A DNA stretch of 43,510 nt, from contig CANQCI010000011.1 in the NCBI GenBank assembly GCA_947589675.1, positions 1-43,510 of the forward strand, given 5' to 3'. The stretch is from an uncultured Bacilli bacterium. GTDB lineage: Bacteria > Bacillota_I > Bacilli_A > RF39 > UBA660. Of this stretch, positions 7,459-35,397 are shown one piece after another (positions within the stretch are counted from its first letter, which is position 1; every line of letters starts with the position of its first letter). A program made the translations under genes and the position numbers. The notes under the pieces were generated by a model, which did not search any database, was not told the origin of the DNA, and saw only the letters and a program-made list of their open reading frames with translations.

Positions 7459-8765
7459 TCTTTCTTAGCAACAATAGTACCATCCTCTAAAAATTGGGCA
7501 TTTATTGACCAATTTTTCATTTTAGCTAATAAATTAGCTGCTTCATCTCCTTTAAGTAAATCAGTATAAACATTACTTTCTAAGCAAGGACTAAATTTAT
7601 AACTAAGTTTGCCCTCATCATCTATTTTCACAGTTAATATTCCCGTTTCAGTAGTTTTATCATTAAAAATAAAATCACCTAAATTATAAGCTATTAATTT
7701 ATTATTATAAAATTCCATTCCTTGTAATTTATGAGCATGCCCACCAACAATGACATCTGCTCCATTATCTAAATATAACTTACCCGTGGTAATTTGGACA
7801 TCTTCTAAAGTATGATAACTTTCTGCTCCCCAATGAATTAAAGCTATTACATAATCACTATTGGCTTTAGCTATTCTAATAGCTTCGATAAAATTTGCAG
7901 GATCATAACATCTTAAAACCCCAGCTTCTGTTGGGGTAGCACCAGGTGTCATTATGTTTTTTTCCGCTCTTGTAGCATTAACAAAAGCGATTTTCCGTCC
8001 ATTAATCACAAAATAATAAGGTTGCATTGCCTCCGCCAAATTGCGACCCGCCCCAATATACGGAAGATTATTTTCTTTTAAGGAAACAAGCATATCATTA
8101 AAAGCATCTTTACCAAAATCATAGACATGATTATTGGCTAAAGTAACTAAATCTACGCCCATCTCCTCATATATCTTAAGGCGACTAGGATCAGCTCGGA
8201 AAGTAAAAGCCTTTCCAGCTATTGGCGTACCCCGAGTACTAATTGTAAATTCATTGTTAGCCACCATGACATCAGAATTAGTCATAATATCTAAAACTTC
8301 TTCCGATAATATCCCATTTATCCCCTTTTTTCGTTCATCATACTTGGGCATTACCGACCAATTATCAGCAAGCGATACATCACCAACAAAACTCAACGTT
8401 ATTTCTTCTTTATCGTTGTTGATAACTTGAATGTTATCAACATTTTCATAACTATTATTATATAAATCCTTTAATACTACAATACTATTATGGGTAAATT
8501 CATACCAACTATTTTCATCAAAATTATTATTTTCTAATTGCTCATTTATTTTCTTCAAAGCATTAGGAAATTTATTATCCACCCATTTCAAAAAATCTTT
8601 AGAATAGTTTTCTTTTATATAATCATATTTCAAAATACTATTTACATAATCAGTTTCATCTTTATGTAATACTATTTCCTCTTCTTTACTTGTAAAAGAT
8701 TTACCAATAACTATACATAACACTACGATTACAATAATTACTATAATTATTTTTCTTTTTTTCAT
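7455..8765 (-). CDS. CapA-like (PGA_cap) surface metallophosphatase-fold protein
   Basis: This 436-residue protein has one N-terminal membrane segment (4-23) and an extracellular CapA domain, as in PgsA/CapA of poly-gamma-glutamate synthesis. Metal-binding motifs of the calcineurin-like fold are clear: LSFVGDVSLAD, ANNEFT, LVTLANNHVYDFG, IALIHWGAE, VGGHAHKLQG and IAYNLGDFIFN. The region from about 30 to 115 is unfamiliar. No other capsule genes are nearby, so it may be an orphan CapA domain enzyme. Its ATG overlaps the stop of the upstream gene (ATGA), so the two are translationally coupled. Confidence 0.88.
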   Translation of the reverse strand: MKKRKIIIVIIVIVVLCIVIGKSFTSKEEEIVLHKDETDYVNSILKYDYIKENYSKDFLKWVDNKFPNALKKINEQLENNNFDENSWYEFTHNSIVVLKDLYNNSYENVDNIQVINNDKEEITLSFVGDVSLADNWSVMPKYDERKKGINGILSEEVLDIMTNSDVMVANNEFTISTRGTPIAGKAFTFRADPSRLKIYEEMGVDLVTLANNHVYDFGKDAFNDMLVSLKENNLPYIGAGRNLAEAMQPYYFVINGRKIAFVNATRAEKNIMTPGATPTEAGVLRCYDPANFIEAIRIAKANSDYVIALIHWGAESYHTLEDVQITTGKLYLDNGADVIVGGHAHKLQGMEFYNNKLIAYNLGDFIFNDKTTETGILTVKIDDEGKLSYKFSPCLESNVYTDLLKGDEAANLLAKMKNWSINAQFLEDGTIVAKKD

Positions 8766-13958: not shown

Positions 13959-14426
13959 TTACCATCTATAATGAGCAAATGCTTTATTTGCTTCAGCCAT
14001 TCTATGAGTATCTTCACGCTTTTTAACAGCACCACCAACTCCATTAGCAGCATCCATTATTTCATTTGCTAAATTAATGGCCATACCCTTTCCATTTCTT
14101 AGTTTTGCATAATTAACTAACCAACGTAGAGCTAGCGTTTGAGCCCGATCATCAGATACTTCAATCGGAACTTGATAATTTGAACCACCAACTCGGCGTG
14201 ATTTAACTTCTAAAGCTGGTTTAATATTTTCTAAAGCTTGATTGTAAACTTCAATTGCTGGTTTACCAGTTTGCTTTTCGACGATATCAAACGCTTCATA
14301 TAAAATTCTTTGAGCTGTTCCTTTTTTACCACCTATCATAATCGTATTTATTAATTTAGTAACTACTTTAGAATTATAAATAGGATCAGGAAGAACATCT
14401 CTTTTTATAGCTCTTTTTTTACGCAT
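13959..14426 (-). CDS. rpsG: 30S ribosomal protein S7
   Basis: This 155-residue primary binding protein of the 16S rRNA 3' major domain has the family stretches [55 protein letters not shown] and the C-terminal [20 protein letters not shown]. It follows rpsL by 19 bp with AAGGAGG upstream. In other bacteria S7 can autoregulate the str operon. Confidence 0.98.
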
Positions 14427-14445
14427 AATATTTCCTCCTTATTTA

Positions 14446-14859
14446 TTATTTTTTATCTTTTTTAGTACCGTATTTACTACGACCTTGTTTCCGATCTTGT
14501 ACTCCATGAGTATCAAGTGTTCCCCGGACAATATGATAACGAACCCCGATTAAATCCTTAACCCGGCCGCCTCTTACTAAAACAACACTGTGTTCTTGTA
14601 AGTTATGTCCTTCGCCTGGAATATAAGCATCGATTTCTTTACCGTTTGATAATCTAACCCGAGCATACTTTCTTAATGCTGAGTTTGGTTTCTTTGGTGT
14701 TCTTGTTCCAACCCGAGTACATACTCCTCTTTTTTGAGGACTTTTAGCATCAGTTTGTTTTTTCTCTAAAGTATTAAATCCCACATTTAAAACAGGACTT
14801 TTACTTTTTCTGACTTTCTTTCCACGGTTCTTTTTAACAAGTTGATTAATTGTAGGCAT
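14446..14859 (-). CDS. rpsL: 30S ribosomal protein S12
   Basis: This decoding-centre protein has 137 residues. It has the N-terminal [28 protein letters not shown] with the lysine (K56) tied to streptomycin sensitivity, and the C-terminal [11 protein letters not shown]. The usually invariant loop GGRVKDLPG reads GGRVKDLIG, with isoleucine 104 where proline is expected. That proline (P90/P91 in E. coli) is a known site of streptomycin resistance or dependence mutations. GGAAAGGAG precedes the ATG. It is first in the str operon. Confidence 0.98.
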
Positions 14860-14879
14860 AATTTACTCCTTTCCATAAA

Positions 14880-14940
14880 CACACATCCTGGTGTATCTTT
14901 TTTTCCTTTAAACAAGGTTCTACCTAAATAGAACCTGTCT
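14880..14940 (-). promoter_or_regulatory. rpsL (str operon) 5' leader hairpins
   Basis: The roughly 85-nt untranslated leader holds a perfect 8-bp stem, AGGTTCTA/TAGAACCT (14915-14922 and 14929-14936), and a short ACAC/GTGT stem closer to the start. They may be an autoregulatory structure. I cannot assign it to a known ribosomal-protein leader. Confidence 0.45.
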
Positions 14941-14954
14941 AAAAATGCACACTT

Positions 14955-14983
14955 ACTATATCATTATAATTAGCAATTGTCAA
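14955..14983 (-). promoter_or_regulatory. str operon promoter
   Basis: On the minus strand, the consensus TTGACA (14983-14978), a 17-base spacer and TATAGT (14960-14955) form the promoter. Confidence 0.8.
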
Positions 14984-15014
14984 TCAAATATTTTTCAATG
15001 GATGTTAAAAAAAA

Positions 15015-15307
15015 TCGCAGGTAAAATTTATTTTTTTAAGAAGATACAAGAAAAGTTGAAAGCTTAAAAGAGAAATAATATGATATTGTTATTCAAGAAA
15101 ATATAATTTAATTAAAAAAATATAAAGATATAAAAGTTCCAATAAAATAATAGTTCAGCAACGCCCTAAACAAGCAGGTATGAGATGGAATATTGATGAA
15201 ACTAATTATTTAATAACTTTAAGCTGCTATCAAGAATGTGACATTGAGCTGAAATAGAAAAAATAGTAGTTGATTATTTAAGTCATTAACTACTATTTTA
15301 CCTGCGA
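15015..15307. mobile_element. Decayed insertion element or MITE-like remnant
   Basis: A 293-bp segment is bounded by exact 13-bp inverted repeats: TCGCAGGTAAAAT (15015-15027) and ATTTTACCTGCGA (15295-15307). It encloses a fragment that reads like a transposase C-terminus. An internal 10-bp hairpin, AATAGTAGTT/AACTACTATT (15262-15297), sits at the right end. A/T runs flank both ends, so a target duplication cannot be defined. The family is uncertain. Confidence 0.5.
15126..15257 (+). pseudogene. Transposase C-terminal remnant
   Basis: An open stretch without a start codon ends ...QQRPKQAGMRWNIDETN, continues with YLITLSCYQE, and stops at TAG. The GMRW followed by a helical, Leu-rich end resembles the C-terminus of DDE transposases of the ISLre2/ISKra4 kind. 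This is a resemblance only. The rest of the gene is missing. Confidence 0.4.
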
Positions 15308-15376
15308 AAATTTTTTACGTCTTTTTTCAGTTTTTCAATTTAAGGACATAAAAAAGAAAGTTTTACCTTTCCTTAT

Positions 15377-15502
15377 TTATAAACCATAACTTTTATAAAA
15401 ATTATAAATCATTATTGTCACTATCAAAAGTGTTATGAGAATAAACCCGCTAAAAACTATCATTTCCGCTAATCCCCAGCCTTTATTATCCAATTTTTTC
15501 AT
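15377..15502 (-). CDS. 41-residue prepilin-like membrane peptide
   Basis: The sequence starts MKKLDNKGWGLAEMIVFSG, continues as a hydrophobic stretch, and ends YNFYKSYGL. It resembles a type IV prepilin N-terminus: basic leader, Gly-8 before an aromatic residue, Glu at position +5 of the predicted mature form, then about 20 hydrophobic residues. There is almost no globular domain. The ATG lies three bases after the stop of the upstream gene, and the binding site AGGTAG is inside that gene's last codons, so translation is probably coupled. No pilus assembly genes are in the window. It may be a small pseudopilin-like membrane peptide; function is unknown. Confidence 0.6.
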   Translation of the reverse strand: MKKLDNKGWGLAEMIVFSGFILITLLIVTIMIYNFYKSYGL

Positions 15503-15505
15503 AAA

Positions 15506-15910
15506 CTACCTATTTTTTTTCATAGTTTGTTCAACTAAAATGTCTGTTAATGATACGTTATTTTCTTGACATACTACCACAGTGTTAATATTATTTAAAA
15601 TAGCAAACATTTGGTTTAATTCTTCTTTACTTAGTTCATCCACGGCAATGGGATAATTTATAACTTCATTTTGAAAATATCTTTTTAAATCTTTAACAGC
15701 TTCAACTCCAGCCACTTTCATAAAGTCTTGAAAACGAACATAAGCTTTGGGATCAACAAATCTTGTTTTTCTTTCTAAAGCCGCTGGGCAATAATCATTC
15801 ACCACTTTATCAACGATAACAGGATAATTTTCCTTAACATAATCATACCACATTTGGTCAACAATCTTATTTTGGATAATATCTTCTTTTATTTCCTTAT
15901 TTTCCTTCAT
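15506..15910 (-). CDS. Hypothetical protein, 134 residues
   Basis: I do not recognise this protein. It is soluble-looking, acidic and helical, with conserved-looking stretches MWYDYVKENYPVIVDKVVND and RFQDFMKVAGVEAVKDLKRY. The ATG at 15910 follows AGGTGAGG; an in-frame GTG nine bases upstream overlaps that site and is rejected. It is coupled to the 41-residue membrane peptide downstream. Confidence 0.6.
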   Translation of the reverse strand: MKENKEIKEDIIQNKIVDQMWYDYVKENYPVIVDKVVNDYCPAALERKTRFVDPKAYVRFQDFMKVAGVEAVKDLKRYFQNEVINYPIAVDELSKEELNQMFAILNNINTVVVCQENNVSLTDILVEQTMKKNR

Positions 15911-16009
15911 ATTCCTCACCTGTGCCCATTATTATATAAAATGTGTCCTCACTTGTCAAAGTTTAACCCCCAATTCGACAAGTATTTTTTGTAAAATTTT
16001 GTAAACCGT

Positions 16010-16513
16010 TTACTTATCTTTATTAATTTCTTGAAGTATTTTCTTTTGATTCTCAATTAATTTATCCATTTTATCATGTAATTCTTCCAAAATTAATTCA
16101 CTTTTTAAATCAATTTTATAATCATTTTGATTCCGTAAACTATCTTTCTTGGCTTGACGATTTTGACTCATCATAATAATTGGAGCCTGTAAAGCGGCAA
16201 CACATGAAAGAAGTAAATTAAGTAAAATGAAAGGAAAAGGGTCAAGTGCCTTTATTAAAATAACGCCATTTAAGACTATCCAAAAAACTAAAAATAACGA
16301 AAAGCCAATAATAAATCCCCAGCTACCAGCAATTTCTGTTACTTTATCAGCCACCCTATCTCCAAAAGTCATTTTACTTTCTTCTAGCTTATCAACATCA
16401 ACGGCAATCGGATTATCTACTAACATGTCTAATAATTCTTCTTCATCTTTAGCATCAATATTTTGATTTAACAACATTTTTACAATATCACTTTTATTTT
16501 TTACTGTTTTCAT
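16010..16513 (-). CDS. DUF1003 family membrane protein
   Basis: This 167-residue protein has the DUF1003 core. FGDRVADKVTEIAGSWGFI is followed by two membrane segments (about 82-100 and 108-128), the second ending in APIIMMSQNRQAKKD, a family hallmark. The C-terminus is a charged coiled coil (RNQNDYKIDLKSE to KKILQEINK). The family's role is not firmly known. The ATG at 16513 follows GGTGA; two upstream in-frame starts lack a binding site. A terminator separates it from the secretion operon. Confidence 0.8.
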   Translation of the reverse strand: MKTVKNKSDIVKMLLNQNIDAKDEEELLDMLVDNPIAVDVDKLEESKMTFGDRVADKVTEIAGSWGFIIGFSLFLVFWIVLNGVILIKALDPFPFILLNLLLSCVAALQAPIIMMSQNRQAKKDSLRNQNDYKIDLKSELILEELHDKMDKLIENQKKILQEINKDK

Positions 16514-16563
16514 TTTCACCATCTTCAATATATAAATACCACAAACTTAAACCTTTGTAAATG

Positions 16564-16595
16564 AAAAAAATTAAGTTTTAACAACCTAATTTTTT
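16564..16595 (-). terminator. Terminator of the type VII secretion operon
   Basis: On the minus strand, AAAAAATTA pairs with TTAATTTTTT-type sequence around an inner GTT/AAC stem. It overlaps the esaB stop codon. Confidence 0.6.
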
Positions 16596-16848
16596 AAATT
16601 AAAACTATCTGGGAACCATTAACTAAGCCTGCATCTTTAACGTTTTTAGATAAATTTAAAGGCATTCCTGTATCTTTACTATATAAAAACGTATCTTTTT
16701 TAAGAGGAAAGCACCCATTAGATAAATCATTTATGGCTTCATTTATTAACCGTACGACATTGCCAATTTTTTTATTTATAGGAATAAATATATCATATTC
16801 TTGATTTAACAAAGGTACAAATACTTCAACTAAAATTTTATTGTTCAT
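16594..16848 (-). CDS. EsaB/YukD-like ubiquitin-fold protein of type VII secretion
   Basis: This 84-residue protein has the EsaB/YukD pattern: ILVEVFVPLLNQEYDIFIP, a helix (VVRLINEAINDL) and the end GLVNGSQIVLI, typical of the ubiquitin-like fold. EsaB is a cytoplasmic accessory factor of Firmicutes type VII secretion. The ATG at 16848 follows AGGAGG at six bases, lies inside the 3' end of essC and overlaps it by 11 bp in another frame. The overlap supports a joint function. Confidence 0.8.
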   Translation of the reverse strand: MNNKILVEVFVPLLNQEYDIFIPINKKIGNVVRLINEAINDLSNGCFPLKKDTFLYSKDTGMPLNLSKNVKDAGLVNGSQIVLI

Positions 16849-19800
16849 CACTTTCCTCCTCATTACTTACTAACTTAACTAATTCATATTCGCCTTCTTC
16901 AATAATAAAACCAAAGTTTCCGGCTAATTTTTCTGAGTTCATCCGATAAAGATTATTTACTTTAAAGATATTTTGATCTCCTAAATTAGTACCAACCCAG
17001 ATACCATTTTTACCATCAAAATTATTGCGATACCAATCATCATAAGCATATTGCTTTAGATTTTCACTATTATCCACCAATATGAAATTAACTTTGCCGA
17101 CGAGTTTGAGCTCAGCTAAAAGATTAACAAATTCATTCTTAAATTCTTCATCTAATTGCGTTAATAAATCATTAATACCAATAATCATAACCACCATACA
17201 TTGATAATTATTTAAAGAACTAACATCATAATTAGCATCAACATAGATTTTATTAATATCACGCATATAAGTCATTAATTTTTCTAAAAATTCTTTATAT
17301 TCACTATTAATATAAGTTATATTACTAACTACATCTTCAACCATTAACTTTTCTTTATCAACAACAGCTAAATTAATATTAGGTATTCTTTTTAAAACAT
17401 TAACTAACCCATTAACAAACTTTTTTGTACCCTTTAAATCAGTCGCTGAAATCATAGAAAAATATTTATTTTCAAAATCAAATTTATCAATATTTAAACT
17501 ATTTTTAGCAACCCCAATCGGTACTTCATTTAATCCTTTAATTTCATCTTGTAAAATGCTAAGATTAACAATATTAGGTAAGACAGGAATTGGTCTGGCT
17601 TTATCTTGATATGTATTTTTTAACTGTTGACATAAGTTGCGAATATAATTTACTAATGCACTTTCCTCGCAAATGCTGGCCGTTTGAAACTCATAGACAT
17701 CACCAATTCGCACCAAGCCCCGTCCCTTGATAGCTGATGGAATAATCTTTTGGTGATTACCTAAAATACTTATATAATCATATGGATCATTCATTTGTAA
17801 AGTTAAAACTTGAGTGAAGTTTTGTCTAATTTTTGACCTAATTGAATTAGTGGCTGTTGCTGTAATAACAAAGATAATACCATACTTAGCTCCTTCTCTC
17901 GTAATTTTAATTAAAGCTTCTTCGGCATCCCCATAGTTTTCCATAAAGTTTTCATAATTATTAATTATCACAATAATTGTTGGTTCTCTTTTATCACTAT
18001 AGGTATTATAAGTTGTAAGTGATCCTCCATACTCAACAAATAATTTCTTACGTTTCTCAATTATCGAATTAACCATCTTTACTAAATTAACAATTTTTTC
18101 TTGATCATTTACAAGAAGTACATCACCAATCTGAGGAACATTATTATATAATTTTAAAGTTTCCGCTCCACAATCAATAATATACATGTTTACTTCAACT
18201 GGGGTATAAGTCGTAATAATCGAATAAACTAATGACATAATTAAGTTTTCTTTACCTGATGATGCCATGCCAAAGATGATGGTATTTCCCTCGGTTGTAA
18301 GAGGTAAAGTTAGTAAATGTTGACTTTGATTGGTCGGATTATCATATTCCCCTAAGACGGGATTAATAACATAATCTTGTTTTTGATAATTATATTTGTT
18401 TTTTAAATTATCGACATATATTAAAGCTGGTATTTTATCTAACCATAATTTTTTAACTTCAATCTTATCACTTGAGGCAATATCAGCTAAATATTTAACT
18501 ACATTAAGTAAAACCTCACCATGATTTTCACTATTTTCTTGAATTTTTATATCATCAATACTTTTGCGAATATTGCCGACATTATCAATAAAGTTTAAGG
18601 AAGTATCAATTTTTTTAATAATTTTTTCACTAGGAATATAAGGCATGCCACAGTAAGCGGCTTGACCGATGGCAAAATAATCATTGTAACCCACTAAAAG
18701 ATAGAAGCGACCAGCTTGCTTTAAAGCTGCAGCATCAGGTACTTTAATCATATCATTACTATCATTTTTATCTTGAACTTTTAAACATACTTTAAAACGG
18801 CTATTACTCCAAATTTGATCATTTACCACCCCCGATGGTTTTTGCGTAGCTAAAATTAAATGAACCCCTAAACTACGCCCAATCCGCGAAGTACTAACTA
18901 ATTGATCCATAAAATCAGGTTGTTGTTGCTTTAATTCGGCAAATTCATCACAAATAATGAATAAATGCGAAATTGGTTGATCAACAACACCATCGCGATA
19001 AAGACGTTGATATTTATAAATATCAATCGTACTTTCACCGGAAATATCCCGAGCTTTATTAAATTCTCTTTGTCGTCTTTTTAATTCTGAATCGATAGAT
19101 GCTAAAGAACGATTTAATTCATTTGCATCAAGATTGGTAATTGTCCCCGCAATATGAGGTAATCTAATACCTAATTCTTTATTTTCAAAGGCTAAAGCTA
19201 ACCCTCCACCTTTATAGTCAATGATAACAAAGGAAACTTCATTAGGGCTATAATTGATAGCTAGTGATAAAATAAAAGTTATAATCCATTCACTTTTCCC
19301 AGATCCAGTCGTGCCGGCAATTAAACCATGTGGTCCATGAAACTTTTCATGTAAATCAATTTTAAATATTTCCCCATTTTCTCCAACACCAACGGGAGTA
19401 GCTAATGACAAAGTAGGATCATTTTGCTTCCATCGCATTAGGGAATTTAAATGCTCTACTTTCCCAATATTATATAATTCCAATAAACCATAACTATCTG
19501 GTAAACCTTTTTGCTTTGTTTCCAAACGAATAGGAATATTAGCTAGTTTCAAACAACAATTATAAATATTAATATTTTCTGGATAATCAGCTTTAAATAT
19601 TTTTTGATTAGTTGATAATAATTCATTTTCAATTAACCCAGACATTTCTGCACTAATATTGATAAAACAATTACATTCATTTGGTAAATTAGATAATCTA
19701 TCATTAACAATTAACACACTAAAGCCTAAATTATCACTAGACTTTAATATTTTTTTCATAAAGCTATAATCAGCAATTTGATTAAAATTATCAGTTATTA

Positions 19801-21430
19801 TAAGGTAATAACTATCAAAAGCTTTATATTTATTTTCTTTTAATTCACTTTTCGCATTTTCTCTTAAAGTAAATTCTTTTTCTAAATATTGAGCTACTTC
19901 TTTTAATTCATCATTTGTTATAGCATAATATCTTTCACTTTTATCATTACTCCAAATATGAGGTAATACTTTAAAAGCATTCCATTTAGCATTATTTTTT
20001 TCATTAGTTAATAACACTATTTTTACCATATCACTACTATAAAAAGCCATTATTTGTAAAAGTATTCCTTTAACAAATTCACTGGTTAAATCATAATTAC
20101 CAATTATCCCAATTATTCTTTTTTCTATCAAAGAAACCGAAATTGGAGCATTAGGTATATCTTTTGATTCTTTAACAACATTTTGAATCAAATCTTTTAA
20201 AGCATCCGGATCCATGGTAAAACGTTCTTTGGAATATTCAATATTAATATCCACCGGAACTGTCCCTAAACCTAAACGAACTACTAAAAAATCTTCATCA
20301 GTATTTTTTCTTTCCCACAACTTACTTTTTTCATTAAGGATAATTTCCGCACAAGTATCTAAAGTCATAAAATTTTCTTGTAATATTTGTTTTTGTTGCG
20401 TAATATGTCCTAATATCTCTTGTTTCTTTTTTTCAATATATTGGGTATATTTCTCAACTCTTAATGCTTCTTTTTCTTCTCTATTTTTCTTTGTATATTT
20501 ATTTCGCAATATAGGCCAAACAAGCATTGAACAAATCATTGTTCCCCCGAAGACAAAGGATGTTATAGCACTTCCCATACTGCCTCCTTTGCCTAATTGA
20601 CTTATTCCCATCCAAATCGTTACAATTGAGGTAAGCGACATCGTTAACATCGGTCCATAAGTTAGTAACCAAGAATTTTTTTCTTCAATTTCCTTACTAG
20701 GTGGATCATCAATAGTTATTTCGATAGTTTCAATTTTACTTCTAAATCTTGGAGCTCGACTAAAGTAATTATTATTTAAACTAACTAAATTAGGATCATC
20801 ATCGTCTTCCTTAAACTCTTGAAAATTTAGTTCCACTTCTTGCAAGCTTGTTTGTACTTGTCCCCCAGGATTAGTAATAATAAGTAAATGACCCATGGGA
20901 ATAATGCGTAAGCCCATGATAAAAATAACATCACCAGAAAAAACTTCACAAGTACTAATCGGATAATTATCCACAAAAGTTTGTTGTTTTTCATCTAAAT
21001 TAGTTACAAACCATCGCTTACTTCGATAAAGAATTTGGGCATGTTTGACCGCTACATAACTATTATTATAGCGAATTTGACAATTAGCATTTGAACCAAC
21101 AATTATTTCACTATTATTGGGAATAGAATAATATTTTATTCCATCATAAATTTCCATAAAAACAATAATAATTACTTCCCCATTTTTTTGACTTTTTAAA
21201 AAATAAAAAACATTAGTTTCTACTATTAAAGATTCTTTTTTTTCACCATTATAAAATAAATCATAATCAAAATTACAACTTAAAATCCATTTATTATCTT
21301 TAGCTTCTATATTAATTAAATTAGTTTTATTTTCATTAATATCTGTATCAGCAAACCAATAATTACCCTTAACTTCTTGAGGTAAAATAAATGTTTCTAA
21401 ATTATTCTCTTTAATTTTATAGATTAACAT
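16838..21430 (-). CDS. essC: EssC-type type VII secretion ATPase (FtsK/SpoIIIE family)
   Basis: This 1530-residue membrane ATPase is the motor of Firmicutes type VII secretion. FHA-like domains fill the N-terminal 200 residues (GSNANCQIRYNNSYVAVKHA at about 112-131). Two membrane segments follow at about 258-310. ATPase domain 1 has an intact Walker A, GTTGSGKS (about 707), and Walker B, LFIICDEFAEL (about 825). Domain 2 keeps only a degenerate loop, GMASSGKEN (about 1055), with IIVIINNYENF as its Walker B-like strand. Domain 3 has no Walker A (ISATDLKGTKK). One active and two degenerate domains match known EssC proteins. GGAAGGTGA precedes the ATG. Confidence 0.93.
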   Translation of the reverse strand: MLIYKIKENNLETFILPQEVKGNYWFADTDINENKTNLINIEAKDNKWILSCNFDYDLFYNGEKKESLIVETNVFYFLKSQKNGEVIIIVFMEIYDGIKYYSIPNNSEIIVGSNANCQIRYNNSYVAVKHAQILYRSKRWFVTNLDEKQQTFVDNYPISTCEVFSGDVIFIMGLRIIPMGHLLIITNPGGQVQTSLQEVELNFQEFKEDDDDPNLVSLNNNYFSRAPRFRSKIETIEITIDDPPSKEIEEKNSWLLTYGPMLTMSLTSIVTIWMGISQLGKGGSMGSAITSFVFGGTMICSMLVWPILRNKYTKKNREEKEALRVEKYTQYIEKKKQEILGHITQQKQILQENFMTLDTCAEIILNEKSKLWERKNTDEDFLVVRLGLGTVPVDINIEYSKERFTMDPDALKDLIQNVVKESKDIPNAPISVSLIEKRIIGIIGNYDLTSEFVKGILLQIMAFYSSDMVKIVLLTNEKNNAKWNAFKVLPHIWSNDKSERYYAITNDELKEVAQYLEKEFTLRENAKSELKENKYKAFDSYYLIITDNFNQIADYSFMKKILKSSDNLGFSVLIVNDRLSNLPNECNCFINISAEMSGLIENELLSTNQKIFKADYPENINIYNCCLKLANIPIRLETKQKGLPDSYGLLELYNIGKVEHLNSLMRWKQNDPTLSLATPVGVGENGEIFKIDLHEKFHGPHGLIAGTTGSGKSEWIITFILSLAINYSPNEVSFVIIDYKGGGLALAFENKELGIRLPHIAGTITNLDANELNRSLASIDSELKRRQREFNKARDISGESTIDIYKYQRLYRDGVVDQPISHLFIICDEFAELKQQQPDFMDQLVSTSRIGRSLGVHLILATQKPSGVVNDQIWSNSRFKVCLKVQDKNDSNDMIKVPDAAALKQAGRFYLLVGYNDYFAIGQAAYCGMPYIPSEKIIKKIDTSLNFIDNVGNIRKSIDDIKIQENSENHGEVLLNVVKYLADIASSDKIEVKKLWLDKIPALIYVDNLKNKYNYQKQDYVINPVLGEYDNPTNQSQHLLTLPLTTEGNTIIFGMASSGKENLIMSLVYSIITTYTPVEVNMYIIDCGAETLKLYNNVPQIGDVLLVNDQEKIVNLVKMVNSIIEKRKKLFVEYGGSLTTYNTYSDKREPTIIVIINNYENFMENYGDAEEALIKITREGAKYGIIFVITATATNSIRSKIRQNFTQVLTLQMNDPYDYISILGNHQKIIPSAIKGRGLVRIGDVYEFQTASICEESALVNYIRNLCQQLKNTYQDKARPIPVLPNIVNLSILQDEIKGLNEVPIGVAKNSLNIDKFDFENKYFSMISATDLKGTKKFVNGLVNVLKRIPNINLAVVDKEKLMVEDVVSNITYINSEYKEFLEKLMTYMRDINKIYVDANYDVSSLNNYQCMVVMIIGINDLLTQLDEEFKNEFVNLLAELKLVGKVNFILVDNSENLKQYAYDDWYRNNFDGKNGIWVGTNLGDQNIFKVNNLYRMNSEKLAGNFGFIIEEGEYELVKLVSNEEESDEQ

Positions 21431-21497
21431 TTTTTCACCTTCCTATTTTTACTATATTTTTATAATATCAAAAAAAAAAGTAAAAAAAAAGTAGTTA

Positions 21498-21812
21498 TTA
21501 ACGAAAATCAATATTAAAAATTCTATTAGCAATATTAGCAAAATAATCACTATATTCCGCATTATACTTTCTAGTTTTATTTATTTTTTCATCAATTACT
21601 TCTTTTATTTCATCCAATTCATTCAAAGAATGTAGTCGAGCATCAGATAATTGTCTTTCGATATTAACTACATTTATATTAGGTAAGCCATTGCTTTTTA
21701 TTTTCCTAATAATGTTATCAATTTTCACAAAAACTTGACTTAATTTACTTCTTATTTCTTCTATATTATTTGAAGTAGCAATTAACTTATTGATAGTAAC
21801 TCCCTTATCCAT
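21498..21812 (-). CDS. Small helical type VII partner/substrate candidate (RKYN family, copy 2)
   Basis: This 104-residue all-helical protein lies directly upstream of essC. It is about the size of a WXG100 protein but has no tryptophan, no WxG and no clear C-terminal YxxxD/E signal. Its end, KTRKYNAEYSDYFANIANRI followed by FNIDFR, matches the end of the gene upstream, so the two are paralogues. AGGAGG precedes the ATG. Position suggests a secretion partner or substrate; that is inference. Confidence 0.65.
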   Translation of the reverse strand: MDKGVTINKLIATSNNIEEIRSKLSQVFVKIDNIIRKIKSNGLPNINVVNIERQLSDARLHSLNELDEIKEVIDEKINKTRKYNAEYSDYFANIANRIFNIDFR

Positions 21813-21834
21813 TCAAAAAGCCTCCTATCCTTAA

Positions 21835-21866
21835 TAAGAGAAAAAGGCCAAACATATTAGCCTTTT
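21835..21866 (-). terminator. Intra-operon terminator/attenuator
   Basis: On the minus strand, AAAAGGC (21866-21860) pairs with GCCTTTT (21848-21842), followed by TTCTCTT. It lies right after the stop of the 114-residue gene and before the 104-residue gene and essC. Partial termination would give more of the first two products than of the ATPase. Confidence 0.6.
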
Positions 21867-22209
21867 ATTCAAACCGGATTTTGAAAATATCGTTTGCTAT
21901 TTCCGCAAATAATTCGGCAAAATCATTATTATATTTCCGAGCTTTACCAATTCTATCATCTAAAATACCAATTATTTCACTTAAATTGGTATTAAGTTTT
22001 GATCTTGCTCCCATTATAATTGTTCCAATTTTAGAAATACTATTACCTATTTCGGAATCTGCCCCCAAAGTATCTTTCATTACTCTTAGGCAACCATGAC
22101 CAGCATTATCAGTCAAACTTATAAAATCTTTTTCTAATCGATCTTTTATTTCCGTAAGTTTTTCGGAAACTTCTCGCATTGTTTTTGTATCCATTTTATC
22201 ATTAGTCAT
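21865..22209 (-). CDS. Small helical type VII partner/substrate candidate (RKYN family, copy 1)
   Basis: This 114-residue helical protein ends KARKYNNDFAELFAEIANDI then FKIRFE, closely matching the end of the 104-residue protein downstream. A shared motif reads RKYN--(Y/F)---FA-IA--IF-I-F. No tryptophan or WxG is present. AGGAGG precedes the ATG. The upstream stop is 15 bp away, so it belongs to the same operon. It is probably a heterodimer partner of its paralogue or a secreted protein. Confidence 0.68.
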   Translation of the reverse strand: MTNDKMDTKTMREVSEKLTEIKDRLEKDFISLTDNAGHGCLRVMKDTLGADSEIGNSISKIGTIIMGARSKLNTNLSEIIGILDDRIGKARKYNNDFAELFAEIANDIFKIRFE

Positions 22210-22224
22210 AATTAAATCCTCCTA

Positions 22225-22677
22225 TTATCGCTTATTATTATTTTCTGCTTGAGTACACAATCTTGCCATACCATCATAGAAATCAATTAAATTAGTTCGT
22301 AAAGTTTCTAAGCAATTATAATTATTAGTTATTTTATTTTTTAAATCTTGACCAACTTCTTCTTGTAGCCATGCTCCAAGTCTATTAGCTTCAAGTACAT
22401 CTTTTAAATCATTGGCAGCAGTTTCCATATCTTTTAAAGCATCGTACAGCAATGAATTTTGATCTTCCAATTCACTTATTTGATTTTGCAATAAATTATA
22501 GGTAATATCCCCACTTCCTTGTCCAACATAACCTCCCTCAAGATTTTCTACGTTATTAGAAATCCCCGTAACACCAGAAGACGTAGTCTTATTATAACCA
22601 CTTGGGGCACTTGTCGTTGAATAACCTAATCCACCAGTAGTTTGATAATTACCATTAGAGTCTTTCATTATTGCCAT
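22225..22677 (-). CDS. Gly/Ser/Thr-rich N-terminus plus helical hairpin, T7SS-associated
   Basis: This 150-residue protein is the first gene of the operon. Residues 1-58 are low-complexity and rich in Gly, Ser, Thr and Asn. Residues 60-150 look like a two-helix coiled hairpin with a turn near GAWLQEEVGQ. The single tryptophan is not in a WxG context. Being first in an essC operon, it is a likely secreted or structural component. AAAGGA precedes the ATG. I cannot place it in a named family. Confidence 0.62.
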   Translation of the reverse strand: MAIMKDSNGNYQTTGGLGYSTTSAPSGYNKTTSSGVTGISNNVENLEGGYVGQGSGDITYNLLQNQISELEDQNSLLYDALKDMETAANDLKDVLEANRLGAWLQEEVGQDLKNKITNNYNCLETLRTNLIDFYDGMARLCTQAENNNKR

Positions 22678-22723
22678 AATATCACATTCCTTTCATACAT
22701 AGCCATCGCTACTCTATATGTCA

Positions 22724-22752
22724 ATTATAACCAATCTACTATATTATTGCAA
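22724..22752 (-). promoter_or_regulatory. Promoter of the type VII secretion operon
   Basis: On the minus strand, TTGCAA (22752-22747), a 17-base spacer and TATAAT (22729-22724) precede the first gene. A second TTGACA begins inside this -10 and is followed 17 bases on by TATGTA, a possible weaker tandem promoter. Confidence 0.65.
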
Positions 22753-22777
22753 TTTTAAATTAATTAAAGTTTGTTAA

Positions 22778-22845
22778 TTTACAAAAAATTTACATTAATA
22801 AAAATAATATTTGAAGTCACTTAATTACTTGTAAATTTTTGTAAA
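22778..22845. repeat. Inverted repeat pair between divergent T7SS genes
   Basis: TTTACAAAAAATTTACA (22778-22794) and TGTAAATTTTTGTAAA (22830-22845) are near-perfect reverse complements with one A of difference, about 35 bp apart. They could be operators of a regulator acting on both promoters. Confidence 0.45.
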
Positions 22846-22914
22846 ATTTTATATAAAAAACTTGATTTACTAGTAAATTTTGATATTCTTAAATTAGAAG
22901 GGAGGAGATTAAAA

Positions 22915-23658
22915 ATGGCAGCTATGGGAAATATGATAGACAAAAGAACTGCATCAGAGATATTATATAAAGCCAATTCTCAAGTAAACGTTATTGGGGA
23001 TGAAGCAACAAAATTATTAGATGCATTCTATAAAATTAGTGAAGAATTTGAAGTTGAACAAACACATCCTGCTTATAAAACATTTAGCGATGCAAGAACA
23101 GCTATTAATACTTTTTTTGAGAGTCTTTTAAAGGATAATGGTGAAAATAATATAGCTCATTACAATGAAACTATTAAAAACTATATTAACAGTGTAGCTT
23201 ATGATTACTATGATGGAAATATAGACAGTCCAGGCTTTTTTGGAATACAAAGGCAACTAAGCATCCCATCTAGTGGAACAGCAACAATCAAAAGTTTCGA
23301 AAGTCTTTATAGTGCCTTAGATAATTTTGCAAAAATACTTAACAATATGATAATAGATTTCAATCATCTTATTGACTATTACAAGGAATTATGGAACGCC
23401 GCAAATGGAGATGTAGGTTTTCAAGATTGTGCCCACGAAGCAGCAGAAAATATAAGAAATGCTGTTGATACTTTTGGAGAAGCCCTAAATAATTTTGCAA
23501 CTAATTTAGAAGAACAAATAGATACAATTGCTAATAATACTAATGTTTCATTAACCAATATGAGTATGTTTAATTTCAGAAATACTTGCACAACTATAAG
23601 TAAATTTTCAGTTAGACGTGTCAACGATAAAAGTCAATTTGGTAGTACACACGATTAA
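22915..23658 (+). CDS. Divergent helical protein of the T7SS locus
   Basis: This 247-residue protein is mostly helical and rich in Asn, Asp and Phe. It has no signal peptide and no membrane segment. Its N-terminal half (RTASEILYKANSQVNVIGDE onward) resembles the long helical heads of secreted type VII substrates. ELWNAANGD is near the middle, but there is no strict WxG. GGGAGGAG precedes the ATG. It is transcribed away from the essC operon across a shared 240-bp intergenic region, with a possible promoter at 22862-22889. A type VII substrate is the best guess from context. Confidence 0.6.
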   Translation: MAAMGNMIDKRTASEILYKANSQVNVIGDEATKLLDAFYKISEEFEVEQTHPAYKTFSDARTAINTFFESLLKDNGENNIAHYNETIKNYINSVAYDYYDGNIDSPGFFGIQRQLSIPSSGTATIKSFESLYSALDNFAKILNNMIIDFNHLIDYYKELWNAANGDVGFQDCAHEAAENIRNAVDTFGEALNNFATNLEEQIDTIANNTNVSLTNMSMFNFRNTCTTISKFSVRRVNDKSQFGSTHD

Positions 23659-23662
23659 AATA

Positions 23663-23719
23663 GTAATTTATAAAAAATCAGTTATGAGTTAATACCATAA
23701 CTGATTTTTTATAAATTAC
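23663..23719. terminator. 24-bp perfect hairpin terminator
   Basis: Arms 23663-23686 and 23696-23719 pair perfectly around a 9-base loop, with the T-run inside the right arm. It ends the 247-residue gene and would work in both directions. Confidence 0.8.
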
Positions 23720-23799
23720 CTCCATAGTATAAATTCAGCTTGTCTTTAAGTAAAATAATTTTAAACCAACTATTATATATATTTAACATAATAATCGTT

Positions 23800-23835
23800 A
23801 AAAAAACTGTTAATAACCATTTAGTTATCAACAGT
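23800..23835 (-). terminator. rplJL operon terminator
   Basis: On the minus strand, ACTGTTGATAAC pairs with GTTATTAACAGT (one mismatch) and is followed by a T-run, just after rplL. Confidence 0.75.
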
Positions 23836-23847
23836 ACTATGATTTTA

Positions 23848-24216
23848 TTAAGCTAATTCTACTTCAGCACCAGCATCAGTTAATTGAGTCTTAATAGCTT
23901 CTGCTTCATCAGCTGGAATATTTTCTTTAATATTTCCACCATTATCAGCTAAAGCTTTAGCATCAACTAATCCTAAGCCAGTAATTTCCTTAATGATTTT
24001 AATAACTGCAATTTTATTTCCACCAGCAGATTTTAATACTACTGTTTTAGTAGATGAACCAGCATCTTCTTCAGCTGCAGCTGGAGCAGCCGCAACTGCA
24101 ACAGCCATTGGATCAACACCAAATTCTTCTTTCATTGCATCGACTAATTCTTTAACTTCAAGAATTGTCATTTCCTTTAAAGCACTTATAAAATCATCTT
24201 TATTTAATTTTGCCAT
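23848..24216 (-). CDS. rplL: 50S ribosomal protein L7/L12
   Basis: This 122-residue stalk protein recruits translation GTPases. It has the N-terminal dimerisation helices (ALKEMTILEVKELVDAMKEE), an Ala-rich hinge near residues 36-50, and the C-terminal domain with KIAVIKIIKEITGLGLVDAK. It starts three bases after the rplJ stop, with AAAGGA upstream, so it is coupled to rplJ. Confidence 0.97.
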   Translation of the reverse strand: MAKLNKDDFISALKEMTILEVKELVDAMKEEFGVDPMAVAVAAAPAAAEEDAGSSTKTVVLKSAGGNKIAVIKIIKEITGLGLVDAKALADNGGNIKENIPADEAEAIKTQLTDAGAEVELA

Positions 24217-24219
24217 ATT

Positions 24220-24717
24220 CTATTCCTTTCCTTCCTTTTGTTCAGCATATAGATTTAAACCAATAGCTAAATCTCTAATATATTGCATCATACCACCAGC
24301 GAGCATAGTAAGTAATCCTTCTCTTGATGGAATGCTTGCATATTCTTGAATTACAGATACATCTGCTATATTTCCACTTATAACTCCAACTTTAATATCT
24401 AATTTATCATTCTTTTTAGCATATTCAGCTAATATCTTAATTGGTTCTAATAATGTTTTACCAAATAAAATAGCATTTGGACCTTCTAAGAATGAATCAA
24501 TATTAATATTTAGTTCATCAGTGGCACGTTTTAATAATGTATTTTTATATACATCAACTTCAGCATCAACTTCTCTTAAACTTTTCCGTAATGTACTTAA
24601 GTCTTCAACAGTCATGCCTTGATATTGAAAGATAATAACAGACTCACTTGATTTTAGTTTTTCAACTATTTCACTAACTATTTTTTTCTTTTCCTTTAAA
24701 ATCTTTTCGCTTGCCAT
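24220..24717 (-). CDS. rplJ: 50S ribosomal protein L10
   Basis: This 165-residue stalk base protein binds 23S rRNA and L7/L12 dimers. The N-terminal KIVSEIVEKLKSSESVIIFQYQG-type region and YKNTLLKRATDELN are typical, as is the C-terminal helix that carries L7/L12. GGGAGG precedes the ATG. A recognisable L10 leader upstream implies autoregulation by the L10-L12 complex. Confidence 0.97.
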   Translation of the reverse strand: MASEKILKEKKKIVSEIVEKLKSSESVIIFQYQGMTVEDLSTLRKSLREVDAEVDVYKNTLLKRATDELNINIDSFLEGPNAILFGKTLLEPIKILAEYAKKNDKLDIKVGVISGNIADVSVIQEYASIPSREGLLTMLAGGMMQYIRDLAIGLNLYAEQKEGKE

Positions 24718-24721
24718 GTTT

Positions 24722-24832
24722 CCTCCCTCTTTAAGTTTCGAAAAGCTTCCCTTTTTTGGGAAGCTTAAAAAGTATTAAGTTTCCCTCGGTAGGACTTACT
24801 TGCGTGCCTACTGTCTTTGGGTTGCGTTTCTA
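24722..24832 (-). promoter_or_regulatory. Ribosomal protein L10 leader
   Basis: The leader carries the conserved kink-turn-containing element: on the minus strand, AAAGACAGTAGGCACGC, then AAGTCCTACCGAGGG. A strong stem AAGCTTCCC/GGGAAGCTT with a six-base loop (24743-24766) and a short T-run follow, acting as an attenuator. In other Firmicutes the L10-L12 complex binds this leader and lowers rplJL expression. Confidence 0.85.
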
Positions 24833-24838
24833 AAACGT

Positions 24839-24867
24839 ATTATATTCTATTTTTTATTAAATGTCAA
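24839..24867 (-). promoter_or_regulatory. rplJL promoter, -35 inside rplA
   Basis: On the minus strand, TTGACA (24867-24862), a 17-base spacer and TATAAT (24844-24839) form a full consensus promoter. The -35 box overlaps the last codons of rplA. Confidence 0.8.
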
Positions 24868-25555
24868 AACTATTTTTGTCAACTTTAATGCCAGGCCCCA
24901 TTGTAGTAGAAATAGATATATTTTGAATAAATACACCTTTTACACTATTAGGTTTAGCTTTGGAAATAGTCGTAATTGCATATTTAAGATTTTCTAAAAG
25001 TTTATCTTCACTAAATGATACTTTACCAATAATAGTATGAACATTACCAAATTTATCATTTTTGTAAGTAACCATCCCCTTTTTAATATCTTCAACAACT
25101 GCTCCAACTTTTGGTGTAACAGTTCCTGTTTTAGGGTTAGGCATTAAACCTCTTGGTCCTAAAATATTACCAATTTTCCCAACTTCCGGCATCATATCTG
25201 GAGTAGCAACAATAACATCAAAATCAAACCAACTTTCATTCTTGATTTTATCAAGCATGTCTTTATCCCCAACATAATCAGCACCAGCTGCTTTAGCTTC
25301 ATCAGCAAAAGATCCTTTGGCAATTACTAAAATCTTTTTGGTCTTACCAGTTCCATTTGGTAAAGATAAAGACCCTTTTAATTGTTGATCAGCTTTTTTA
25401 GCATCAATATTTAATTTAACAGCTAATTCGACTGTACTATCAAATTTGGTTGTTGATGTACTTTTAACTAATTTAATGGCTTCCTCAGCATTATATAATT
25501 TGTTTTTATCAACATTTTTAGATGCTTCCACATATTTTTTACCGTATTTTTTCAT
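24857..25555 (-). CDS. rplA: 50S ribosomal protein L1
   Basis: This 232-residue protein binds the mobile L1 stalk of 23S rRNA and, in many bacteria, its own operon mRNA. Typical segments are KKYVEASKNVDKNKLYNAEE, GSLSLPNGTGKTKKILVIAKG, GNILGPRGLMPNPKTGTVT and KPNSVKGVFIQNISISTTMGPG. AGGAGG precedes the ATG. It follows rplK by 50 bp. Confidence 0.97.
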   Translation of the reverse strand: MKKYGKKYVEASKNVDKNKLYNAEEAIKLVKSTSTTKFDSTVELAVKLNIDAKKADQQLKGSLSLPNGTGKTKKILVIAKGSFADEAKAAGADYVGDKDMLDKIKNESWFDFDVIVATPDMMPEVGKIGNILGPRGLMPNPKTGTVTPKVGAVVEDIKKGMVTYKNDKFGNVHTIIGKVSFSEDKLLENLKYAITTISKAKPNSVKGVFIQNISISTTMGPGIKVDKNSFDI

Positions 25556-25604
25556 TTTTACCTCCTAACTGTGGTTCATTAGCGGATAATATTTTTTTTC
25601 TTAA

Positions 25605-26213
25605 TTATTCAGTTTCTTTTTCTGTTTCTGCTTCTTCTTCATCACCATGAACTGGAACTTCAACATTAGTTGCTTCCGCCATTTCTTTAGCTTCGGCTTC
25701 TAATTCAGCAAGTTCAGCATCACGTTTAGCTTGTTCTTTTTCTTCTTCTGCTGCTTCTTTAGCTTGTTCAGCAAGTTCAGCATCATTCAAACCTTCAACC
25801 GCGATACCCATATTTCTAGCTGTTCCAGCAATAATATTCATGGCTGATTCAACATCATAAGCATTTAAATCAGGTAATTTTTCTTCAGCAATAGCTTGTA
25901 AATCTTTTTTACTGATGGTCGCTACGATTTCATTCGCACCTTTTTTACTACCCTTATTAATTTTAGCTGCTTTCTTTAATAAAAAGCCCGCTGGAGCAGT
26001 TTTAAGTACAAAATCAAAGCTTCGGTCATCATAAATGCTAATTTCGCATGGAACTATATCGCCCATTTTATCCCGAGTTGCATCATTAAATTTAGAACAA
26101 AAATCACCTAAATTAATCCCAGCAGGTCCTAGCACTGTCCCAACTGGTGGGGCTGGAGTTGCTTTACCAGCTGGTATTTGTAACTTAATTTTCTTAACGA
26201 CTTCTTTTGCCAC
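25605..26213 (-). CDS. rplK: 50S ribosomal protein L11 with acidic C-terminal extension
   Basis: The first 140 or so residues are normal L11, part of the GTPase-associated centre: [35 protein letters not shown] and [12 protein letters not shown]. The protein does not stop there as L11 usually does (about 141 residues). A further 60 residues follow, rich in Glu, Ala and Lys, beginning [20 protein letters not shown] and ending in an acidic tail. The start is a GTG at 26213 after GGGAGGTG; ATGs farther upstream lie in the leader. The extension is in frame and well formed, so it is probably real. Confidence 0.95.
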
Positions 26214-26244
26214 GAAAACACCTCCCATAAAAATATCTCGCGTT

Positions 26245-26281
26245 AGTGGTGTGGGCAAGTCCGCTATCTTTCCCCTCCACT
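26245..26281 (-). promoter_or_regulatory. rplKA leader hairpin, possible L1-binding site
   Basis: AGTGG (26281-26277 on the minus strand) pairs with CCACT (26249-26245), with an inner GGG/CCC stem, separated by small internal loops. L1 represses its operon through such a leader structure in several bacteria. The assignment here is inferred from position. Confidence 0.4.
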
Positions 26282-26318
26282 TAACCAACTATATAAAAAA
26301 TATATAATTGCATTAAAA

Positions 26319-26391: not shown

Positions 26392-26420
26392 TTGGCATTA
26401 AATAATTAATATGATATGAT
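26392..26420 (+). promoter_or_regulatory. Promoter of the surface-protein gene
   Basis: TTGGCA (26392-26397), a 17-base spacer and TATGAT (26415-26420) with an upstream TGA form an extended -10 promoter. An ATG at 26416 lies in the -10 and so cannot be the start. Confidence 0.65.
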
Positions 26421-26445
26421 TAAAGAGAATAAGGGAGGGGTTAAT

Positions 26446-27456
26446 GTGGCACGAAAATTTTTTAATCAAAAAGTTAATAATGATAACTCTAATAAAAAAG
26501 TCATTCAAATAGCTATTATTGTTGTTTGCGTAATTGGAATTGTTATTGCTTTCTTCGTCGCCAATTATTTTAATAGCCATGGGAAAAAGGATAAAATTAA
26601 AATTGAAATGCGAGAGTCGGTTGCTATTGAAATAAACGGGCAATTACCTAGTAAAGTTTTATTTTTTAATGAACTTGAAGGAATTAAAGAAGATGATATT
26701 AAAATCAACTTTGATAATGTGCAAACTAATCTAATTGGTGAATATCCTGTCGAAATTGAAATTCAAGGAAAAAAATATACTTCTAAAGTCCAAGTATTAG
26801 ATACTGCTTCTCCAACGTTAGTTTTAAAGGAAGTTACTATTGATGAAAATAGTTCTTATACTGTCAACGACTTTGTTTCTTCTTGCAATGATAATAGTAA
26901 TGAAGCCTGTAATATTGCCTTTTATGCTTTAGGTGTTGACCAAAATGGTAATGCCATTGATTATTCAAGTTATCGCACCGCCGGAACTTATAAAATCCAA
27001 ATTATGGCCACAGATAATTCCAACAATTCTACTCTCCAAGAAACCACTTTGTATATAAATGGTCAAGTTGTAGTACCACCAAGTACCAGTTGTAATTATG
27101 GAAATAGTGATTATGATCAAAGTGTATTATTAGCTAGTGATGTTACGCAGAATGGTTGTGCCTTAGATTTAAATCTATATCAAAGCGAAACTGTTTTATC
27201 GGGTGTTAATAATATCATGGATCAAGAATTTGAAAAATTAAAAAAGGAATTTAGTAAACAAAATATCAACGGAACTTTAAAACTAAATCGAACCGCTTCC
27301 CCAGTATTAAATCTTACAGGAAATGGCTTAGTTGGTTATACAATTCATATGGATGTATTAATTATAAACGGTGAAAGTTCAGAATTAGTCGAAAGTTATG
27401 ATTTAGATTTAACTGGTAGACGAATATATACCGTAAATAAATATAATTTACCATAA
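26446..27456 (+). CDS. Membrane-anchored surface protein with Ig-like repeats
   Basis: This 336-residue protein has a basic N-terminus, one membrane segment (about 18-40) and an extracellular region. Residues 50-120 (GEYPVEIEIQGKKYTSKVQV) and 120-215 (AGTYKIQIMATDNSNNS) read like bacterial Ig-like/DUF5011-type beta-sandwich domains. A third domain of unknown type follows (about 220-336), with paired cysteines. GTG at 26446 is the likely start after GGGAGGGG. It is likely exposed on the cell surface; ligand unknown. Confidence 0.72.
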   Translation: MARKFFNQKVNNDNSNKKVIQIAIIVVCVIGIVIAFFVANYFNSHGKKDKIKIEMRESVAIEINGQLPSKVLFFNELEGIKEDDIKINFDNVQTNLIGEYPVEIEIQGKKYTSKVQVLDTASPTLVLKEVTIDENSSYTVNDFVSSCNDNSNEACNIAFYALGVDQNGNAIDYSSYRTAGTYKIQIMATDNSNNSTLQETTLYINGQVVVPPSTSCNYGNSDYDQSVLLASDVTQNGCALDLNLYQSETVLSGVNNIMDQEFEKLKKEFSKQNINGTLKLNRTASPVLNLTGNGLVGYTIHMDVLIINGESSELVESYDLDLTGRRIYTVNKYNLP

Positions 27457-35372: not shown

Positions 35373-35397
35373 ACTTATCACCTACCTCTAATATACT

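Follow-up and report, generated by a model that had tools for sequence, protein, structure and literature searches.

A putative compact type VII-like export locus with an EssC of an unnamed lineage from uncultured Bacilli and Clostridia

We describe a type VII-like locus in a 43,510-nt stretch of contig CANQCI010000011.1 from an uncultured Bacilli bacterium of the family UBA660 (the window hereafter, to whose whole length positions refer unless another locus is named). The locus is organized around a gene for EssC, the FtsK/SpoIIIE-type ATPase of type VII secretion systems (T7SSs). Its EssC comes from a lineage of its own, in which the recurrent core is minimal, consisting of EsaB and WXG100-type proteins, and the site in ATPase domain D2 is dead; this lineage is a real, widespread and coherent T7SS variant. 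We consider it probable, at roughly 0.62, that the locus, whose EssC lineage is without a name so far and is found in uncultured Bacilli and Clostridia, encodes a compact type VII-like export system. The anatomy of the locus and its conservation are read directly from the genomes, whereas secretion is predicted from the families to which its proteins belong.

The initial annotation of the window had recognized a type VII-like locus with three small helical genes, essC and esaB in one apparent operon; we recover all genes of the locus at the same coordinates, and the EssC model score and YukD match given below agree with that assignment. In order of transcription, the operon on the minus strand encodes proteins of 150, 114 and 104 amino acids (aa), the 1530-aa EssC and an 89-aa EsaB-like protein. 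A gene for a 247-aa helical protein lies upstream of the operon, on the plus strand and divergent from it. The genes and ATPase motifs are:

16838..21430, minus strand: EssC-type FtsK/SpoIIIE ATPase, 1530 aa (TIGR03928, FHA, FtsK_SpoIIIE and YukB matches)
19292..19318, minus strand: D1 Walker A, aa 705-713, AGTTGSGKS, intact
18230..18292, minus strand: D2 P-loop region, aa 1047-1067, GMASSGKE, in which Glu1061 replaces Ser/Thr
17912..17986, minus strand: D2 Walker B region, aa 1149-1173, in which Asn1157 replaces Asp
16594..16863, minus strand: EsaB/YukD-like ubiquitin-fold protein of 89 aa, whose gene overlaps the end of essC
22225..22677, minus strand: 150-aa protein, first gene of the hairpin pair (homologue at L113:6436-6723)
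21865..22209, minus strand: helical hairpin protein of 114 aa, encoded by the second gene of the pair (homologue at L113:6752-7096)
21498..21812, minus strand: 104-aa paralogue of the 114-aa protein (hmmsearch E=1.8e-9)
22915..23658, plus strand: 247-aa double helical-hairpin protein (homologues in L032, G343 and G484)

The EssC protein exceeds the cut-off of the NCBI EssC model for the T7SSb type (TIGR03928; 1009.9 bits over a cut-off of 778.4) and aligns with the solved structure of B. subtilis YukB (PDB identifier 9qks) with E=1.3e-115. It has the D1, D2, D3 architecture with a match to FtsK_SpoIIIE (E=7.2e-51), one detected FHA domain (aa 110-169, E=6.5e-9) and a membrane segment near aa 289. 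The EsaB-like protein matches Pfam YukD with E=0.0012, below the curated cut-off, and clusters with an esaB-type gene that lies no more than four genes away from essC in 94 of the 105 essC-bearing loci in which neighbouring genes were called and clustered. The essC genes of some relatives seemed to contain in-frame TAG codons; open reading frame calls are full-length in the loci read, and we take these codons to be alignments overrunning the natural stop.

EssC of this type is present in 111 of the 243 family genomes sampled and in 77 of 148 genera, from which we conclude that it is under maintenance; its presence in the genus of the window is patchy (13/30, counting full-length matches). A scan of named genomes yielded 50 loci from uncultured Bacilli, Clostridia, Erysipelotrichaceae and Tenericutes, almost all of them in metagenome-assembled genomes. 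For essC, esaB and the helical genes alike, other genomes hold homologues grouped around essC, and the locus is therefore more than a chance association. Across the 105 neighbourhoods, a WXG100-type cluster occurs near essC in 56, and after the EsaB and WXG types the next commonest neighbours are found in at most 12. No membrane protein family occurs near essC in more than 10 of these loci, and those all come from one sublineage.

In a tree of 35 EssC proteins, including 6 rows from T7SSb, 5 from loci with a kinase or large envelope protein and 22 from the clade of the window, the last of these is recovered with a support of 100/100. It is sister to the kinase/envelope-protein group and apart from T7SSb with a support of 99/97, and a 61-row tree agrees. 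Because long branches and odd composition affect some rows of the other two groups, we place less confidence in the sister relation than in the clade itself. The initial annotation had suggested a reduced or divergent form of the system; the position of EssC outside the T7SSb clade does not fit a reduced T7SSb, and we correct this reading to a separate EssC lineage.

The sister group comprises T7SSd, T7SSe and T7SSj together with four further loci (L194, L196, L197 and L199), which resemble the window in having FHA on EssC and a WXG pair. They differ from it in that a kinase and/or a large envelope protein (TsxD/TsxI) is encoded beside essC. It is conceivable, though doubtful, that the window belongs to a T7SSd/e/j-like system whose kinase and TsxD/TsxI-type envelope protein are encoded elsewhere, so that it is minimal only at the locus. 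The sister relation to loci with a kinase and a large envelope protein beside essC (L194) or a lipoprotein-like protein (L196, L197, L199), the kinase and envelope parts of the published systems of this kind (PMC11217815) and a single-pass Ig-like protein encoded about 2.8 kb from the locus (26416-27456, plus strand) would all be in keeping with such an arrangement. However, the published subtypes have their kinase and envelope genes adjoining essC, and queries with kinase, TsxI-like and TadZ-like proteins at about 105 clade loci, a search confined to the loci, gave only short weak matches and no TsxD/TsxI-type homologue of note at the window or elsewhere in the clade. The Ig-like gene is a singleton, homologues being absent from the other loci, and we reject it as a part of the system.

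The ATPase domains set the clade apart from the reference systems. The Walker A Ser and Walker B Asp of D1 are kept in all 109 clade EssCs. In D2, by contrast, position 1061 of Walker A is Glu in 98 of the 109 and Ser in 4, position 1157 of Walker B is Asn in 103 and Asp in none, and no clade member (0/109) has both motifs intact, whereas both motifs are intact in the references for T7SSb, Agathobacter and EccC (S/T and Asp, respectively). In S. aureus, D2 Walker mutants of EssC lose EsaA, EssA and EssB (PMC9436818). A clade without these three proteins has lost exactly the D2 motifs that hold them in S. aureus, which is a correlation.

Turning to the small proteins, the 150-aa protein has a Gly/Ser/Thr-rich N-terminus followed by a helical part with AWLQEEVG. 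Homologues of the 150-aa and 114-aa proteins (E=5e-4 and E=5.4e-12, respectively) are encoded by 95-aa and 114-aa genes directly upstream of essC in another genome (G544, locus L113), and the pair is also present, away from essC, in the EssC-positive genomes G484 and G332. Homologues of the 247-aa protein lie next to esaB in L032 (E=1.3e-10), directly downstream of essC in G343, and in G484; within the family they are confined to EssC-positive genomes (3/3). The initial annotation had proposed that the divergent helical gene may encode a further substrate; given these homologues, we regard the 247-aa protein as a candidate core partner or substrate.

No family above cut-off was found for the small proteins in Pfam or NCBIfam, and profile searches of PDB sequences returned nothing significant. 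The W-x-G motif is absent from all four helical translations, as the initial annotation had noted for the small proteins. A match of these proteins to known WXG100 or LXG families, named there as a refuting outcome, was not obtained in profile searches, in which they remain below thresholds. The best match to WXG100 (PF06013) in the genome is that inside the 247-aa gene (E=0.26), and LXG (PF04740) has no match at E<=1 in the genome, with a positive B. subtilis control. A WXG100 profile built from the clade recovers clear members, with E values as low as 8e-25, in most sister genomes and nothing convincing in the genome of the window, where its best match (E=0.007) is to an unrelated 492-aa frame. 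In profile-profile comparison with the clade WXG100 proteins, the N-terminal half of the 247-aa protein reaches 68% against 6% for the reversed control, which is modest support.

The AlphaFold model of the 114-aa protein is a hairpin with a predicted local distance difference test score (pLDDT) of 86.8, whose PDB neighbours include EsxA, EsxB, GBS1074, CFP10-ESAT6 and HP0062 with Z scores, tied with those of unrelated helical chains, of 9.2 for EsxB, 8.7-8.9 for EsxA and 9.6 for HP0062. The 247-aa protein is modelled as two hairpins (pLDDT 75.9), and a structure search with this model retrieved generic helical bundles only (ferritin-like, syntaxin-like) and was uninformative. An iterated hidden Markov model of the 247-aa protein swelled to 94 helical proteins and is not used as evidence. 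The small proteins resemble the WXG100 and Lap proteins in being predicted helical hairpins of about 100 aa encoded by paired genes beside EssC, and in the EsxA/EsxB-like predicted fold of the 114-aa member, but differ from them in lacking W-x-G and any match of significance to Pfam or in profile-profile comparison. In place of EsxA, this genome may use the 150/114 pair or the 247-aa protein.

The lack of a profile match for the small proteins and of a recognizable toxin-like substrate at the window locus could also be accommodated if this EssC were not involved in protein export, being instead a remnant or a translocase with other cargo, with the helical genes as unrelated neighbours. We consider this improbable, given that in two genomes the hairpin pair immediately precedes essC, and that in two others a 247-aa homologue immediately follows essC or esaB. 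Moreover, sister loci carry genes typical of T7SSs, namely those for true WXG100 proteins, DUF4176 proteins (E=2e-27) and an apparent WXG-esterase fusion. The fusion (L003) has an N-terminal WDG hairpin-type sequence and a C-terminus that looks esterase-like by eye, as read from the translation rather than from a profile, and is a plausible substrate.

Further gene arrangements were seen at other loci. Eight similar proteins of about 230 aa are encoded in tandem directly downstream of esaB at L171:10297-16136 (G484), each with a hydrophobic segment at the N-terminus that closes with TYAFWTTT or TYAYWTTT. One contig (L114; G436:C12) has two EssC copies, about 50% identical to the EssC of the window; several WXG100 genes lie between these copies or follow them. 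At L042:13861-16215, and also at L044, L045 and L061, small helical proteins are encoded downstream of esaB in repeated modules of four genes, each module closing with a longer helical protein; these modules look like Lap/substrate cassettes.

The initial annotation had reported EssA, EssB and EsaA missing from the window and had proposed a search of the whole genome. That search was run, and the absence extends beyond the window to the genome, a draft assembly with 95.23% completeness that totals 1.46 Mb over 60 contigs: EssA was not found (B. subtilis control positive), EssB (YukC) has no match at E<=1, and neither EssB nor EsaA was found there or in 14 EssC-carrying relatives of the family. 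The best match of the EssB/EsaA search in family genomes (E=0.0075) falls in a frame that stop codons interrupt. In the positive control G036, an EssC-carrying genome of the same class, EssB lies directly beside essC (E=7.5e-53) and EsaA is also detected (E=6.9e-22). BLAST with EssB, EsaA and EssA from Listeria, L. fermentum, G036 and Enterococcus gave matches confined to T7SSb loci among the loci compared. A reduced or decaying T7SSb that lost EssA, EssB and EsaA, or one whose genes fall in the missing 5% of the draft, is largely refuted and rejected as very unlikely despite the T7SSb model score of EssC and the incomplete assembly, because EssB and EsaA are absent from all 15 EssC-carrying family genomes while G036 has both, making the absence a property of the lineage and not an assembly gap, and because EssC lies outside the T7SSb clade and is intact with an invariant D1.

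Several points weigh against the reading of the locus as a compact export system, in which export is in any case predicted from sequence. The membrane-partner search away from essC covered EssA, EssB and EsaA alone. D2 is also degenerate, variably, in sister loci, some of which have an envelope partner; its decay is not tied solely to the lack of partners and follows no strict rule. Unrelated helical proteins attain fold matches as good as those of the helical proteins here, and profile-profile comparison of the small proteins with the clade WXG100 proteins gives no signal (8.8% and 26.7%, with reversed controls at 17-18%).

On the reading of a compact export system, EssC would form a pore-forming ring spanning the membrane, with D1 supplying an ATP-driven force by hydrolysis. 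EsaB would bind next to D1, by analogy with the ubiquitin-like domain of EccD in ESX-5, and D2 would be a non-hydrolysing ring with a passive or regulatory role. Hairpin dimers would be recognized by EssC and then exported. The 150/114 pair would probably act as an EsxA/EsxB-like dimer, with the 104-aa paralogue as a possible spare, while a further substrate or a core protein may be seen in the 247-aa double hairpin; in sister genomes the same slot would be filled by true WXG100 proteins.

To our knowledge, all well-studied T7SSs carry several membrane partners, whose removal leads to loss of secretion, and the composition of a minimal type VII channel is therefore still open. As a tentative conjecture, EssC and EsaB alone might constitute the whole export machine, in which a homo-oligomeric EssC with one working motor ring moves folded helical hairpins through the membrane without a dedicated membrane partner, and D2 might have decayed in step with the loss, or the ancestral absence, of the partners that it anchors in T7SSb.

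The absence of EssA, EssB and EsaA is by itself not new, since eight T7SS subtypes without them (T7SSc-j) were described by Garrett et al. 2024 (PMC11217815). The unusual aspects are the lack of a recurrent membrane partner at the examined loci, the dead D2 site throughout the clade and the absence of a canonical WXG100 from this genome. As far as tested, the locus fits none of T7SSa-j, T7SSi being compared by recurrent essC neighbours. The EssC with FHA and D1-D3, the T7SSb EssC model match and the EsaB/YukD-like protein recall T7SSb of Staphylococcus, Bacillus and Listeria, but the genome of the window differs in its missing partners, the separate clade of its EssC, the degenerate Walker A and B of D2 and the lack of a canonical WXG100. 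With T7SSg of Acetivibrio and Paenibacillus (PMC11217815) the locus shares a simple set of two small hairpin proteins, a ubiquitin-like protein and an ATPase; however, TsgC lacks FHA and T7SSg has a beta-propeller protein, TsgL, and an adjacent Tad pilus locus, whereas the EssC of the window has FHA and no such recurrent neighbours. The ATPases of T7SSc and T7SSh likewise lack the FHA domain. T7SSf of Clostridium and a locus on the Agathobacter rectalis plasmid NZ_CP143948.1 (L110) are similar to the window in having EsaB, FHA and EssC together with no EssB or EsaA at the locus. T7SSf has a PPM phosphatase, TsfJ (FHA) and TadZ-like TsfV; a test for the latter two gave a short weak TadZ-like match at one clade locus and FHA matches inside EssC itself. 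The L110 EssC differs in keeping an intact D2 and grouping with T7SSb. T7SSi of Vallitalea has an EspG-like TsiG, TsiM and a LytR-like TsiN, against which only the lack of recurrent essC neighbours can be set here.

The L110 plasmid comes from an isolate and encodes EsaB, a separate FHA protein, a shorter EssC, a WXG100 protein and two Imm59 immunity genes, without EssA, EssB or EsaA; it is a possible culturable model of a partner-poor T7SS.

The locus sits between rplL and rpsL (window 13959-26288), the usual place of rpoB-rpoC in Bacilli, and neither rpoB nor rpoC was identified within the window. At L069, L075 and L079 essC likewise follows rplK-rplA-rplJ genes, and at L040 (3038-6583) it follows an rpoC-like gene; the ribosomal/polymerase region may be a repeated insertion site for essC loci. 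Two hairpins accompany the genes:

21842..21866, minus strand: terminator-like hairpin between the 114-aa and 104-aa genes
23668..23714, strand not assigned: symmetrical hairpin of 20 pairs with a T-run, located between the 247-aa gene and rplL

The first might, at most, be an attenuator, the number of hairpins being no higher than in shuffled sequences, and the second is likely a terminator. A DUF1003 membrane protein directly downstream of esaB (16010-16528, minus strand, E=2.7e-36) and a 137-aa protein (15506-15919) have no homologue at other EssC loci and are rejected as parts of the system. The Ig-like protein mentioned above, a single-pass membrane protein of 346 aa with a weak Big_3 match, recalls envelope proteins of other T7SSs. 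The flanks also harbor AAA_14/DUF4143 ATPase and PGA_cap capsule-type genes (34050-35381 and 7455-8765), with no link to the locus seen.

A search of the papers available to us found none that names this EssC lineage. The survey of Garrett et al. 2024 was built from RefSeq genomes (PMC11217815), in which uncultured lineages such as that of the window are likely under-represented. If the conjecture of a machine made of EssC and EsaB alone is true, a widespread natural lineage with these two as its sole recurrent machine parts, and with D2 switched off, would allow one to ask whether EssC itself is the pore and what role ATP binding by D2 has. The lineage also adds a large branch of uncultured Bacilli and Clostridia to the RefSeq-based classification of T7SSs (PMC11217815).

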